A stretch of 60,780 nt of DNA from Marivita lacus (GTDB lineage: Bacteria > Pseudomonadota > Alphaproteobacteria > Rhodobacterales > Rhodobacteraceae): NCBI RefSeq assembly GCF_014637725.1, contig NZ_BMFC01000003.1, forward strand, positions 403,772 through 464,551, given 5' to 3'. This document shows, piece by piece, positions 14,668 through 40,500 of the stretch (position 1 is its first letter; each line of letters begins with the position of its first letter). The translations under genes were made by a program, and so were the position numbers. The notes beneath the pieces were generated by a model that did not search any database, was not told where the DNA came from, and was given only the letters and a program-made list of their open reading frames with translations.

Positions 14668-15723
14668 TCAGGACACGCTGATGCGCGGGTTGAGATACAC
14701 GTAACCGATGTCCGAGATGAGCTGAGTGATCAGCACGACAAAGACCGACACGACCGACACGCCCAGCAGCAGTTCGATGTCATTGTTCCCCGCCGCCTGC
14801 ACCAGCGTCCAGCCGAAGCCCTTGTAGTTGAACAGGGTCTCGACGATCACGACGCCGTTCAGAAGCCACGGGAATTGCAGCATGATCACCGTGAACGGTG
14901 CGATCAGCGCGTTGCGCAGCGCGTGTTTCAGCACGATGTTGCTGAACGACACACCCTTGAGCCGAGCGGTGCGGATATATTGCGCGGTCATCACCTCGGC
15001 CATCGAGGCGCGGGTCATGCGCGCGATATAGCCCATCCCGTAAAGCGCGATGGTCATCACCGGCAGGGTGAAGTTCTCGAACGTGGCATCCTCCATCGCG
15101 CTGGTGGCGGACCCGTTGAACCACCTGAGCCCGAACGCCGTGGAGGCGAAGACGGCGATGAACACGACGCCCGACACGTATTCCGGCGTCGCGGTGGTGA
15201 TGATCGACACGGTCGACAATGTCCGGTCGGTGCGGCTGCCCTCGCGCATCCCGGCCATCACACCAATGATCAGTGCGCCGGGCACCATCACCACCATGAC
15301 CCAGAACATGAGCTTGCCCGTCAGGCCAAGCCGTGTTGCGATGATCGATCCGACCCCGTCCTGAAACACGGTCGAATAGCCCCAGTCGCCCTGAAGCACA
15401 CCGCAGAAGCTGCGGGCGTAATCGGGGGCAACACCGTTTTCAAGCACACCATTGCAGCGCGACCGCACCGTGCCGTCACGGCCTTCGATCACCCATCCGG
15501 GGGCGACACCAAGCCATTGCGCATATTTGATCGGCAGCGGTTGGGAATAACCACGATCCTGCAGAAAGCTGTCCACCTGTTCGTCCGTCATGCGAACATT
15601 GCCCTGGTTCTTGGCAAGTTTTTCGAGGTTGGGCGCGAGGTTGGTGAGCCAGAAAACGATGAACGTCAAACAAAGGGCTGTCAAAATCATGGTTCCGATA
15701 CGTCGGAACAGAAACAAAGCCAT
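14668..15723 (-). CDS. Peptide/nickel-type ABC transporter permease (DppB-like)
   Basis: A 351-residue permease with an N-terminal TM helix, a periplasmic loop of about 80-100 residues, and a five-helix BPD_transp_1 core. The EAA loop reads TARLKGVSFSNIVLKHALRN, close to DppB/OppB consensus. It follows the binding-protein gene after a 111-nt gap that carries a GC-rich hairpin. It pairs with the permease at 13457-14650. Confidence 0.9.
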   Translation of the reverse strand: MALFLFRRIGTMILTALCLTFIVFWLTNLAPNLEKLAKNQGNVRMTDEQVDSFLQDRGYSQPLPIKYAQWLGVAPGWVIEGRDGTVRSRCNGVLENGVAPDYARSFCGVLQGDWGYSTVFQDGVGSIIATRLGLTGKLMFWVMVVMVPGALIIGVMAGMREGSRTDRTLSTVSIITTATPEYVSGVVFIAVFASTAFGLRWFNGSATSAMEDATFENFTLPVMTIALYGMGYIARMTRASMAEVMTAQYIRTARLKGVSFSNIVLKHALRNALIAPFTVIMLQFPWLLNGVVIVETLFNYKGFGWTLVQAAGNNDIELLLGVSVVSVFVVLITQLISDIGYVYLNPRISVS

Positions 15724-35466: not shown

Positions 35467-35565
35467 CAAGAAACAGGCCGCGAATGATCATGTGAGGGTC
35501 ACAAAATGGCCCGCTCAAGCAGTCATGGTTTGCGCCGTTATCATGGTGACGAGCAAGGTGTAACG

Positions 35566-37143
35566 ATGTCCCGACTGATCCTCTCACAAGCCCTCTTGCT
35601 GGTCGAAGCCGTTGCCATCGTCGCCTTGTATCAGGTGTTCAGCAGCTTTGAATGCCGCCAGACGGATTTGTTTGTTTTCTGCCGTGGGATACGTCTGGCG
35701 ATGGTGCTGGGCCTGTGCCTTGCTGCGGGCTTTGCGGTCTTGCTGCTGTTCCAGCCGTCCTTGCGCGAGAGTCTGGTCGTCAAATCCGCGACAGGCGGCG
35801 ACCGGTCGCGCCTCTGGGCGGCTGTCCATGTCGCCGGGCTGTTGCTGATTGTCGCGCCAAACCTGTTCCTAAGTGACGGCCAAATGCTCGCTTACGTGCT
35901 GCCGTTTCTGCTGACGCTGGCCGTTGGGGGCATCGCGGCGCTTGTCGGCGGCGCACTCTGGCTGATGCCCGCGTCCGCGTGGCGCGACCTGTACCGCGAT
36001 CACGCGCAACTTCTGCTGCCGACCATCGCGATCTCTTTGCTGATCCCGTCGCTGGCATGGACCATCGGACTGGTGTGGAACTGGTCGGACACGCTCCAGC
36101 TTGCCACCTTCTACAGCGTTGCAGTGATGCTCGCGATCCTCGGCAATGACGTGTTCGTCAACCTTGATCTCGCAACCATCGGGATCGTCGAGTTTTACGT
36201 GGAGGTGGCCGAATCCTGTTCCGGCATCGAAGGTCTGGCGCTGACCACGGCCTTCATGGCGATCTACGCGCTTATGATGAAGGATGACCTGCGCATGGGC
36301 CGGTTCTGGCTGATCGTCTGGCCTGCAGCCCTTGTCCTGAGCTTCATCCTCAATGTCGTCCGCATCACCGTGCTGATCCTGATCGGGGCCTACATGTCGC
36401 CCGAATTGGCCGTGAATGGCTTTCACAGCTTTGCGGGTTGGCTGTCCTTCACGCTGCTGGCGCTGCTGATCCTGACCATCGTCAACATCCTGCCGGGCCT
36501 CAGCAAGACCGCCAAAACCGCGCCCAAGATCAAGCATCCACCGCTGACCGAGGACAGGTCAGCGGCGTTCATCGTGCCGTTCCTTGCCTTCATGCTGTCC
36601 GCGCTGGTGGTCCACACGTTCTCGCAGACACCCGAGGTCTGGTACGGCGTTCAGGTCGCGGCGATGGCGCTGGCCTTGTGGATTTTCCGCAAGCCGGTGC
36701 TGGCACTGACGCGCAACATTGATCTTGTGGCCTGTGCTGCGGGGCTGCTGATCGGCATCGGCTGGATCGTTACCGCCGAACCGGCCACGCCATATGCGTC
36801 ACTGGCCGAGTTTGGAGCGTTGGCGCTCACGGTTTGGGTGGCGCTGCGGGTGATCGGAACCGCTCTTCTTGTGCCGATCGTCGAAGAACTGTTCTTCCGA
36901 GGCTATCTCTTCAGCCTGATCGACGATGGCAGCGTGCTGCGCAGGGTAGCGGCCATCGCGATAACCACCGCAGGGTTCGCGGCACTGCATTCCCGACCGC
37001 TGACCGCAGCCATTGCAGGTGTGATCTTTGCGCTGGTGCTGCTCAGACGGGGCAGGGTGTTCGACGCCATTGTGGCCCATGCGGTCGCCAACGGGTTGAT
37101 CGCGACAGCGGCGCTTGTCACGGGTCAGTGGTCACTGATCTGA
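35566..37143 (+). CDS. xrtE: Exosortase E fused to a CPBP (CAAX-like) membrane protease, VPEID-CTERM system
   Basis: A 525-residue membrane protein in two parts. Residues 1 to about 315 form an exosortase with the catalytic triad visible: Cys218 in ESCSGIEG, Arg266 in NVVRIT and His287 in GFHSF. Residues about 340-525 form an ABI/CPBP intramembrane protease with Glu440-Glu441 in EELFFRGYL, His475 and the HAVAN motif at His505. This fusion defines exosortase E, which sorts proteins bearing a VPEID C-terminal tail. A 59-residue VPEID protein is encoded 75 nt downstream on the other strand. The ATG at 35566 has AAGG upstream; an ATG at 35506 with GAGGG is an alternative. Confidence 0.9.
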   Translation: MSRLILSQALLLVEAVAIVALYQVFSSFECRQTDLFVFCRGIRLAMVLGLCLAAGFAVLLLFQPSLRESLVVKSATGGDRSRLWAAVHVAGLLLIVAPNLFLSDGQMLAYVLPFLLTLAVGGIAALVGGALWLMPASAWRDLYRDHAQLLLPTIAISLLIPSLAWTIGLVWNWSDTLQLATFYSVAVMLAILGNDVFVNLDLATIGIVEFYVEVAESCSGIEGLALTTAFMAIYALMMKDDLRMGRFWLIVWPAALVLSFILNVVRITVLILIGAYMSPELAVNGFHSFAGWLSFTLLALLILTIVNILPGLSKTAKTAPKIKHPPLTEDRSAAFIVPFLAFMLSALVVHTFSQTPEVWYGVQVAAMALALWIFRKPVLALTRNIDLVACAAGLLIGIGWIVTAEPATPYASLAEFGALALTVWVALRVIGTALLVPIVEELFFRGYLFSLIDDGSVLRRVAAIAITTAGFAALHSRPLTAAIAGVIFALVLLRRGRVFDAIVAHAVANGLIATAALVTGQWSLI

Positions 37144-37167
37144 TCTGGCGCCTTGGGTGCAAGACAT

Positions 37168-37199
37168 AAAAAAGGCATCCGACGAAACCGCCGAATGCC
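37168..37199 (-). terminator. Rho-independent terminator of the VPEID-CTERM gene
   Basis: On the minus strand GGCATTCGGC pairs with GTCGGATGCC across a GGTTTC loop (37174-37199, two G-U pairs), followed by six T residues. The orientation fits the small leftward gene, not the rightward xrtE that ends at 37143. Confidence 0.8.
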
Positions 37200-37218
37200 G
37201 ATTGTATTCGAGAGTCCA

Positions 37219-37398
37219 TCACGCGCGATTGCGGCGACGCACTTCCCAAGCCAACAGCATCGCTGCGGCAACCACAGCAAGCGCAAGTGCGCCACTGCTT
37301 GCGTCAATTTCCGGAACGGACGAGGACACCGTAGGTGTGGTTCCACCGCCAACTGTGCTTCCACCGCCGAAAAAGATACGCCAACTATCCCACCACAT
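37219..37398 (-). CDS. VPEID-CTERM sorting-domain protein (exosortase E substrate)
   Basis: A 59-residue protein. It opens with an aromatic, amphipathic MWWDSWRIFFGGG, followed by a Gly/Thr/Ser linker, then SSVPEIDASSGALALAV: the recognition motif VPEID at residues 28-32, a hydrophobic helix and the basic end RRRNRA. This is the tripartite sorting signal expected for XrtE. No classical signal peptide is visible. The ATG has a perfect AGGAGGT four nt upstream, and a strong terminator follows. It is convergent with xrtE. After cleavage at the motif the remaining peptide would be about 30 residues, so the protein is nearly all sorting signal; its function is unknown. Confidence 0.88.
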   Translation of the reverse strand: MWWDSWRIFFGGGSTVGGGTTPTVSSSVPEIDASSGALALAVVAAAMLLAWEVRRRNRA

Positions 37399-37539
37399 AA
37401 TTACCTCCTACATAGCAGCGATTCTTTGCTACACAAAAAAGTCGAATTCTCCAAGCTAGAGTGTTGTTTCGTTCACAAATGCGCAACAATCATCAACTTT
37501 TGCTAAAATAGCCGAAAGCCCTTCAACAATGCTGCCCAA

Positions 37540-40500
37540 TTATTCGGCAGCCCGGACAGGGGGCGTGCCATCATTGGCCTGCGACCGCTGAAGGACTCGC
37601 TTGAGATCCTCCAACGCGGGGGCCCCGGTCAAGCCCTCTTCGTACTCGGAAGCGGGCTGCGTATCGTCGTCTTCCCACAGGATCGTCGGGGATTTGACCT
37701 GACGTGCAGCGCGCTGCAACGCCCAGTCACGGCTGGCGCGACCGCCACCAAGACGGGCCACCAATCGCAGGGCCCAGAGCGCATAGGTGCCGAACCAGAC
37801 CCGCGCCGCCAGCATCGCCGGCGTGAAAACCAGTGTCAGGACCGTCGCGATGCCCAGACCGAACACCACCGCCGTGGCCAATTGTTTCCACCAAAGCGCG
37901 GTCGGGCTGTCGATTGAATAGCCGCCCCCGAAGAAATCGAGGCTGAGGCCGAACATCATCGGCGCAAGACCCGCCATCGTGGTGATCGTGGTCAGCAGCA
38001 CTGGTCGGATGCGGTCCTCGGCGGTGCGCACGATGGCCTCGATCCGCGGCATGTAACGACTGTATTCCTGATAGGTGTCGATCAGGACAATGTTGTTGTT
38101 CACCACGATCCCTGCCAGGGCGACGATCCCGGTTCCGGTCATGATGATGCTGAACGTCTGGTCCATGACCAGCATCCCGATCAGCACGCCCGCGGTGGAC
38201 AGGACCACGGCAAGCAGCACCAGTGTCGCGTTATAGAAGCTGTTGAACTGCGCCAGCAGGATGATGAACATCAGCCCGAGCGCGGCACCAAAGGCCTTGC
38301 CGAGAAAGGCCTGGCTTTCGGCCTGTTCTTCCTGATCGCCGGTCCATTCCCAGTCGATTCCGGGCAGGGGGCCGGTCTCGAGCCATGTCGTCAGTTCGGC
38401 GATGCGCTCGTTGGCATTGACCGGCACGATGCGCGCGCCATCCTCCAGTGCCGCCGTGACCTCTGAGGCCGCGACTGTCTCTGTGCCCAGCAGCGCATAA
38501 GTGTTCCCATTCGGCCCCGTGATCGCGCCACCCTCGCGCTCCTGCAAAGTTGCAAGCGTCGTGCTGCCATCCGCGCCGTCGATGACCACCTTGGACAATC
38601 CGGGCAGCACATCCGCCTTCACGTCGAAATAGCGCTTCTGATCGACGCGGGTGATCTCGGATAGCTTGGCCACCGGCTGCCGGGTGATGAAGTTCGACAG
38701 CGGCACAAGCCCGTCATCCGTGCGCACCCGCAGCGTGTCGAGCGTCGACAGGAACCGGTCTTCCTCGGGCAGGCGCACGCGGATCTCGATTTCTTCATCC
38801 GAACTGTCGACCCGCATCGTGTCAAGCAGGATGCCCCGCGTGACCAGCTGCACCATTGCGCCGACGACGGCGACGTTCGCACCATAACGCCCGGCCTTTT
38901 CGACATCCACGTCGATCTGCCAGTCGATGCCGGGAAGGGGCAGGGTGTCTTCGATCAGGGTCAGACCCGGCGTGGCCTCGAACTTGTCGCGGGCAGTCGC
39001 GGTGGAGGCCAGCAACGTGTCCCAGTCATCCGCCTTGAGCCGCAGGTGCACGGGCTTGCCGCTGGCCGGACCCCGGTTCTGCGACAGGATCTCGATCTCG
39101 ACTCCGGGGATGACTTTCAACTGCTCCGCCAGTTCCTCGATCACCAGATCGCCGTCCAGATCGGGCCGGTCGGCACGGTCTTCCCACGGGATCGTTTCAA
39201 GCTGCACCTGACCGATGGTGTCTTTCGGCACCGACGCGCCGCTGGCATCGGTGTTCAGACCGCCTTCACCCGCAAAGGAAAACGCGTTCTTGACGCCGGG
39301 ATGGGCCAGCACGATCTGTTCGGCGCGCATCACCAGCGCGTCCTTTTCCGGCAGGCTCAGGTTGCCGCGCGCCCGGACATAGACAATCGCCTGCTCGGGT
39401 TCGGATTCGACAAAGAATTCGACGCCGTTGTTGTTCTCGCCGAAATAGGTGAACACGCTCAACACGAAGGCCAGAACACCGGCAGCCGCAACGATGGGCA
39501 TGATCGGGTTGCCCGCGATGAACTTGATGAAATACCCGAACAGCGTCCGGTGGCGGCTTCCGTCGACACGCTTGCGGGTCCAGCGGATCGACGCGGCGTC
39601 CAGCACGATGGAGGCGAGGATCGCCCCCACGAGGAACAGCACGATCCCCGGCAGATGGCCCGCGATGCCGTCCGCAACTGGCGGGAACAGAAAGCCGGGG
39701 TCCAGGAGCAGCAGCGCACCGATGAGCAACAGCCCCAGCACCACAGGCACCAGCGCGGCGCGCAGCAGCCATGATGTGCGTGCGCGCAACCCTTCAGAGG
39801 CCCGGTCCAGCATCCTCGAGAACCGGCCCGTGACGCCGCCCATGACCGGCAGGTACACCAGCGCCACCACCAGTGAGGCCGACAGCACGAAGATCAGAGT
39901 GACCGGCAGCATGCCCATGAATTCGCCGGGAACGCCCGGCCAGAACAGCATCGGCAGGAAGGCGCAAAGCGTCGTTGCGGTGGAGCTGACCACCGGCCAG
40001 AACATCCGCTTGGCCGCCTCGACATACGCGTGCATCGGGCCGGTGCCTTCCTTGATGCGCTTGTCCGCATATTCGACCACCACGATGGCGCCGTCGACCA
40101 GCATGCCCACGGCCAGGATCAGGCCGAACATCACGATGTTGGAAATGCTGACCCCCATGATCGACAGGAACACGAAACACAGCAGGAACGAGGTCGGAAT
40201 GGCAAAGCCCACCAGCAGCGCGGCGCGCAGGCCCAACGACGCCAGCACGACGATCATCACCAGAGCGATGGCGGTCAGAACCGATCCTTCCAGCTGCTTG
40301 ACCATGCTGTCGACGATGCGGGACTGGTCGTTCGACGTGCCCACGGTGACGGCCGCCTGCAACTCGGGCGGCCAGTTGGCTTCGGCAGCGGCCACTTCGG
40401 CTTTCACCGCGTCCGCCGTGTCGATCAGGTTGAAGCCCTTGCGCTTGACGACCTGAAGCGCAAGCGTCTTTTCCCCGTTGAACCGCGCCGTGCCCTCGCG

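Follow-up and report, generated by a model that had tools for sequence, protein, structure and literature searches.

Results

In this study, we analysed a stretch of 60,780 nucleotides from Marivita lacus (contig NZ_BMFC01000003.1, positions 403,772 to 464,551 of the forward strand), called the window below, in which xrtE, the gene of an exosortase E fused to a CPBP protease, converges on a 59-codon gene for a VPEID-CTERM substrate without a signal peptide (Table 1). The original prediction, made from the letters alone, had described such a fusion with both sets of catalytic residues and, 75 nt away, a 59-residue protein whose last 32 residues are VPEID motif, membrane helix and basic tail. 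Both descriptions were confirmed: the gap spans 37144–37218, residues 28–59 of the small protein (the 59-mer) consist of VPEID, helix and RRRNRA, and XrtE aligns with TIGR04162 at 513.8 bits against a cut-off of 150, over model positions 5–516 of 516, while its fused CPBP domain (56.3 bits with PF02517) carries the EExxxR, H, HxxxN pattern. The 59-mer reaches 60.7 bits with TIGR04161 (cut-off 33; residues 28–57 aligned), and each protein is the only match to its model in its own genome, for TIGR04161 at E values up to 0.1. With both curated cut-offs passed, the two genes belong to the TIGR04162/TIGR04161 system, and the XrtE/VPEID pairing, which had been taken as established in outline, holds beyond this genome; it is already known from curated models and annotation, plasmid records being already named xrtE and VPEID-CTERM sorting domain-containing protein. 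The xrtE frame runs from an ATG at 35566 to a stop codon ending at 37143; an alternative in-frame ATG lies at 35506, and the starts in congeners fall mostly at or near MSRLI.

Table 1. Features of the xrtE locus, in window coordinates.
Feature	Position	Strand	Basis
xrtE, exosortase E / CPBP protease fusion, 525 aa	35566..37143	+	TIGR04162, 513.8 bits
Exosortase/archaeosortase core, residues 212–309	36199..36492	+	TIGR04178 and PF09721 matches
CPBP / Rce1-like domain, residues 423–510 (E440, E441, R445, H475, H505, N509)	36832..37095	+	PF02517
59-codon VPEID-CTERM substrate gene, without signal peptide	37219..37398	-	TIGR04161, dN/dS about 0.10
Aromatic head MWWDSWRIFF, residues 1–10	37369..37398	-	kept in Marivita, head dN/dS 0.145
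Gly/Ser/Thr linker, residues 11–27, length variable	37318..37368	-	Marivita alignment
VPEID motif, residues 28–32	37303..37317	-	TIGR04161 match
Predicted helix (residues about 36–51) and basic tail (54–59)	37222..37293	-	TIGR04161 alignment, helix limits by eye
Shine-Dalgarno AGGAGGT, 4 nt before ATG	37403..37409	-	sequence
Terminator-like hairpin 3' of the small gene	37174..37199	-	11 pairs, T6

The catalytic residues were followed through an alignment of 113 XrtE rows from distinct loci, distinct meaning non-identical XrtE, with near-copies still included. Exosortase residues C218 (codon 36217–36219), R266 and H287 are present in all 113 rows; E440, E441, R445 and H475 of the CPBP domain are found in 112 rows and H505 and N509 in 111, the remainder being gaps. 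Two further cysteines, C30 and C39, are near-invariant (108 and 109 rows, respectively). Loop charges alternate across the alignment and place C218 on an acidic outer loop; by the same loop-charge topology C30 and C39 are predicted to fall in another outer loop, and E440/E441 together with H505 in the part of their helices nearer the cytoplasm.

The 59-mer shows the tripartite C terminus of the PEP-CTERM type, with motif, hydrophobic helix and basic tail, and the signal peptide, which is typical of PEP-CTERM substrates and no component of the TIGR04161 model, was not found, the 27 residues before the motif containing no hydrophobic segment as judged by hydropathy. The original prediction had noted the missing signal peptide and about 30 residues before the motif; its observation stands, since an in-frame stop precedes the small open reading frame (ORF) by four codons and the upstream frames offer no signal peptide (best 10-residue mean 1.35). 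The tail of 27 residues preceding the motif (N-tail) contains one Arg and one Asp, so that a short N-tail, few positive charges, a single helix and a basic C-terminal flank are all seen in this protein. It has no Cys; the invariant tag Cys of MYXO-CTERM is absent, and the MYXO-CTERM model TIGR03382 gave 13.1 bits, under its cut-off of 15.85.

Regarding expression, the gene's own AGGAGGT site, to which the original prediction had pointed, is present, and the same or a similar site precedes the starts of the small genes of the genus. What had been called a strong terminator alongside it is a terminator-like hairpin that by itself does not reach significance (one found, shuffle mean 0.8). A sigma-70-like promoter was not found in 37100–37600, and an alignment of the upstream DNA of ten genomes, with L109 ending at a contig edge (L and G numbers are our handles for loci and genomes), showed partly conserved blocks to which no promoter was assigned. 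With the hairpin near the shuffle mean and no promoter found, the statement that the gene appears well expressed, which had been drawn from ribosome site and hairpin only, is not supported. The frame itself is under purifying selection. Nei-Gojobori counts summed over pairs of the ten Marivita genomes, M. lacus included, gave pS 0.56, pN 0.10 and a dN/dS of about 0.10, with 0.18 for the linker and 0.05 from motif to tail, and the substrate measures 52–59 residues across the genus.

Among 195 relatives, 27 have an XrtE scoring above cut-off and 25 a TIGR04161 match at E values up to 0.001, 20 of these matches being above cut-off. Both occurred together in 24 genomes, XrtE alone in three (G023, G033 and G170), the tag alone in one (G064) and neither in 167 (Fisher p 2e-26); near xrtE of the three genomes with XrtE alone lie divergent small tagged frames (VPEV, APEIN and VPEIS). 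The tagged small protein of G064 (L111) has a signal peptide, its genome gave no TIGR04162 match, and it is either an orphan substrate or the target of another enzyme. Within the genus (17 genomes), the complete pair is present in 10 and missing altogether in six, and in G004 an xrtE fragment at the end of a contig is all that was found. Where the pair is missing altogether, the Atm1-type ABC and RND genes that would flank it are separated by 25–106 bp, measured between alignment ends. The two genes thus come and go jointly, as one cassette. In samples of 394 genomes from the family and 385 from the class, XrtE occurred in 42 and 4, respectively. The flanking DNA fetched, at most about 6 kb, includes a tagged partner at 101 of the 113 loci; the closest partner is downstream and convergent at 77 of them, upstream and co-directional at 21 and otherwise placed at 3. 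For 11 of the remaining 12 loci a TIGR04161 match exists elsewhere in the assembly, three of these below the curated cut-off, and in G791 the whole-genome search gave no TIGR04161 match.

The original prediction had staked its reading on conservation of the 59-codon frame beside xrtE in relatives, and the frame is conserved. The missing signal peptide recurs as well: counting the window, partners of this kind occur at 26 loci, and the other 25 contribute 27 ORFs, which start at Met (one from a GTG codon). The aromatic N-terminal segment, whose conservation had been posed as a question, is shared, with at least three W, F or Y among the first 12 residues in 25 of the 27 ORFs (MWNWFFGGYTG, MFDWFWNGWY, MFNFWNWFGS and MNWWNWWTYS are examples), followed mostly by a Gly/Ser/Thr linker. 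The N-tails comprise 20–32 residues (median 23), and the mean number of K and R is 0.7 in the N-tail versus 4.7 in the C-terminal tail. In ORFs outside this class, an A-x-A-like site follows the most hydrophobic segment in 77 of 78 cases. There, the piece from putative signal peptide to motif measures 5–31 residues upstream of xrtE (median 13, n = 24) and 7–59 residues downstream (median 29, n = 53), mature starts being taken from a lax A-x-A-like rule that sets some of them clearly a few residues early. Trp-rich mature starts are found in many of these relatives, at least two Trp occurring in 34 of the 53 downstream ORFs, as in QSYSWWSSWWGNWNYGGGGTTSSS-VPEID, and Trp makes up 9.7% of the signal-peptide-less tails versus 10.1% of the mature part of the 53. 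From the aromatic start, the linker and the matching Trp content, we infer that most signal-peptide-less proteins resemble the mature part of their relatives plus a start codon. For these statistics L062 was left out, the two poorly started frames of L167 are of uncertain signal-peptide class, and the names VPEIS and VPEID were assigned according to the side of xrtE, so that a few sequences stand under the other name.

Multiple precursors were also observed. At L088 (G043) three tandem signal-peptide-less VPEID-type ORFs lie downstream of one xrtE, and a fourth copy, which does carry a signal peptide, lies at a distance in the same genome (L112). The partner frame of L069 (G307) resembles an in-frame fusion of two tandem precursors, with two VPEID motifs and a first helix that has no basic tail and runs into a new Trp-rich mature part. 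Three tiny precursors stand near one xrtE at L097 (G170) and at L178, one of them with its predicted signal peptide only about 5 residues (ISGGS) away from the motif.

On a tree of the 113 XrtE rows, from which a 363-residue fragment (L078) was left out and in which a row of 360 residues (L134) was kept, the signal-peptide-less label of 26 rows, taken from the partners before the tree was made, needs six changes, at least five of them forced by well-supported (starred) branches. A tree constrained to unite 25 of these rows in a single clade is worse by 286 log-likelihood units (p-AU 2.5e-53); L100, on a long branch, was left out of this test after the tree was seen. XrtE of the window groups with its congeners and G043 and adjoins Ruegeria-type relatives that have the signal peptide (support 86, branch not starred). 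With a single origin rejected on the XrtE tree, repeated loss of the signal peptide is probable. Loss is the simpler reading, but regain may have occurred, for example at L123/L145.

Turning to the gene surroundings, a conserved third gene was sought for the convergent type at 105 loci, and none was common among the first 22 neighbour clusters, which are mostly unannotated. The largest interpretable families, RND (22 loci) and Atm1-type ABC (16 loci), follow host synteny. This clustering, from which eight Marivita loci were left out, is rough: the XrtE cluster covers 87 of 105 loci, XrtE having been displaced at some loci by long antisense frames, and such frames form a separate cluster of 21 loci. 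The gene xrtE also occurs on Rhodobacterales plasmids (12 records in PLSDB). On three of four plasmid loci viewed, polysaccharide-related genes lie near it: flippase, sulfotransferase and glycosyltransferase genes surround it in Rhodovulum, a glycosyltransferase gene lies two genes on in Limimaricola, and a sugar transferase gene four genes on in Leisingera, adjoining its VPEID gene; at the Paracoccus pantotrophus plasmid locus no polysaccharide-related gene was recognised. Elsewhere in the window, the Rfam family RF02647 (Ruegeria Cis52 sRNA) matches at 14913–15091 on the plus strand with 142 bits.

Discussion

We propose, with a modest lean in its favour, a model in which the locus is a two-gene cassette of XrtE and one dedicated peptide-sized substrate that enters the membrane N-out, is cut at VPEID and transferred, and whose remnant is cleared by the CPBP domain. 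A single hydrophobic helix, preceded by a short tail of weak charge and followed by several basic residues, predicts an N-out/C-in orientation, which would place VPEID at the outer face. Insertion would not need a signal peptide, the helix serving as a reverse signal anchor, and the weakly charged 27-residue N-tail would cross via a YidC/Oxa1-type insertase, as does that of the Pf3 coat protein. According to PMC7616256, helices whose translocated tails are short (for EMC, up to about 50 residues) are handled by insertases of the Oxa1 family, and the same segregation is considered likely for YidC in E. coli; PMC8548208 shows, for N-out insertion of the Pf3 type, that fewer N-tail charges lessen the need for YidC and the proton motive force. 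The same source presents the Pf3 coat protein as Sec-independent, with a short translocated N-tail of few charges before its helix; it differs in being a phage coat and not a protease substrate, so that the likeness is one of mechanism only, with no kinship. Acting at the periplasmic side, the exosortase site would then cut at or next to VPEID via C218 and free a peptide of about 28–30 residues, composed of aromatic head and Gly/Ser/Thr spacer, whose new C terminus may be joined to an acceptor, with a lipid or an exported glycan as the likeliest candidates, yielding a surface peptide. A glycan acceptor is possible, given the glycan genes near some plasmid xrtE genes, though unproven. The leftover helix and basic tail would be cleared or trimmed by the CPBP domain: C218 outside and E440/E441 and H505 in the cytoplasmic half suggest that the two active sites act from opposite sides on one substrate helix. 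Taken together, the locus suggests a system that handles peptides rather than proteins.

Several points weigh against this proposal. The helix count for residues 147–191 of XrtE and the position of H475 clash with a simple topology, and with 147–191 misfitting and H475 ambiguous the two-sided arrangement can only be predicted. Signal peptides were judged by hydropathy and not by a trained predictor; under a stricter rule, with a best 10-residue mean below 1.0 required and the codons preceding the assigned start included, the signal-peptide-less class keeps 21 of its 25 fetched loci. L105, L145, L172 and L100 are the weaker cases, L105 and L145 having an in-frame upstream hydrophobic stretch (2.04 and 1.98, respectively), and in L102 such a stretch (2.33) lies out of frame, where its use would need a frameshift. 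At L088, two of the three tandem ORFs are poor in aromatic residues. Beside the Marivita pair, no glycan gene was recognised by eye. Finally, the only tagged frames near the early-placed XrtE of L062 (G232) are three larger ones with VPEV (open over 203, 269 and 539 codons), and tiny substrates are consequently not universal.

Among other explanations, the one that survives best takes XrtE as a hydrolase that releases the aromatic peptide of about 28 residues as a free signalling or antimicrobial molecule. Peptide size, Trp-rich heads, sequences that vary between genera and the tandem copies in G043 would all suit such a product, and bacteriocin processing is part of the CPBP family name (PMC11980579). 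However, no dedicated exporter is apparent, the flanking Atm1-type ABC and RND genes staying behind in the six congeners that have no pair, and such sorting enzymes are described in the same source as appearing to leave their substrates membrane-anchored; we regard a free peptide as rather unlikely. A little less likely again is that the 59-mer is no substrate and, as a small single-helix membrane protein, serves XrtE as a subunit with a regulatory or structural role, the true cargo being encoded elsewhere. The strict pairing, the tiny size and the better conservation of motif, helix and tail than of the head are compatible with this, but the 59-mer itself bears the sorting motif and is the only TIGR04161 match of its genome, and many of its relatives, with signal peptides and variable mature parts, look like substrates.

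A slimmer prospect is that the processed peptide is an anchor adaptor tethering a larger surface protein, an idea that concerns the co-directional (mostly VPEIS) sister type and not the window. A large adhesin-like gene stands upstream at 14 of the 21 co-directional loci and, in another orientation, at L071, giving 15 loci, L091, L064 and L170 included. All 15 proteins have an invariant C-x-C near their end (within the last 200 residues), the peptide often has a Cys pair, and homologues of the adhesin occur in 8 of the 195 relatives, six of which are co-directional XrtE genomes. On the other hand, at least two Cys are found in only 10 of the 21 co-directional partners, seven of these beside an adhesin; G023 and G033, among the eight co-directional XrtE genomes of the 195, have no adhesin; and two adhesin-bearing genomes have no XrtE, one of them keeping C-V-C and the other ending in D-C-I as translated. 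In the genome and genus of the window no adhesin-like protein was detected at E 1e-5, so that tethering would be a matter of the sister type. Four of the adhesin-like proteins were scanned, and SdrD_B and Ig-like domains scored above cut-offs. Cys/Gln is the signature of a thioester; a thioester reading of the family is weak, as PF08341 (thioester) passes its cut-off in L060 only, stays below in two and is missing in one. Lastly, that a missed start, a frameshift or a degenerate gene mimics the loss of the signal peptide is largely refuted and retains hardly any probability: genomes derived from metagenome assembly are in the set and the upstream stretches of L105, L145 and L102 exist, but the window frame is closed upstream and under purifying selection, and the same short form is present in nine other xrtE genomes of the genus and in the isolates Roseovarius tolerans DSM 11457 and R. 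mucosus DSM 17069.

The proposed cassette shares features with known systems. PEP-CTERM/EpsH systems have many, usually larger targets per genome. With them the window system has motif, helix and basic tail and a Cys/Arg/His enzyme in common, and it differs in its one tiny target without a signal peptide. To our knowledge, the enzymes MrtJ and MrtX have no exosortase domain. Fusions of EpsH with CAAX proteases have been noted since 2006, when four were listed (PMC1569441). The two-gene neighbourhood of MrtJ and JDVT-CTERM and the myxosortase MrtX resemble the window system as dedicated enzyme-substrate dyads with a CPBP protease acting on a C-terminal tag and differ in the invariant Cys of that tag (PMC11980579); this source also gives all 35 MYXO-CTERM proteins of M. 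xanthus as having signal peptides. Among the papers listed in searches of the openly licensed literature, we found no paper on XrtE and no description of a signal-peptide-less substrate, its repeated origin or the aromatic head. New, as far as searched, are the recurrent signal-peptide-less substrates, the aromatic head, the way in which both genes are cleanly present or absent together, and the adhesin gene next to the pair in the sister type.

A wider reading, which we put forward tentatively and expect to fail rather than hold, would make XrtE not a protein sortase but a ribosomal-peptide ligase that produces surface lipopeptides or peptide-glycan conjugates from gene-encoded peptides of about 5–60 residues, with precursors in several lineages doing without the Sec signal peptide and using N-tail translocation as a second entry route to the exosortase, and the VPEIS peptide possibly serving as a covalent or disulfide tether for the adhesin.

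The chemistry of exosortase acceptors is unsettled, the working model in PMC12188702 having the enzyme only "possibly covalently linking" its target to polysaccharide or another molecule. The cassette is near-minimal in this respect, with two genes, a two-site enzyme and one substrate of 52–59 residues in its genus that could be synthesized, and its clean presence and absence in congeners provides natural controls. If true, the repeated loss would be a natural experiment showing that a Sec signal peptide is not required for exosortase substrates, set against the SignalP site that a re-analysis suggested for 97% of PEP-CTERM substrates (PMC1569441), and it predicts entry by way of YidC.

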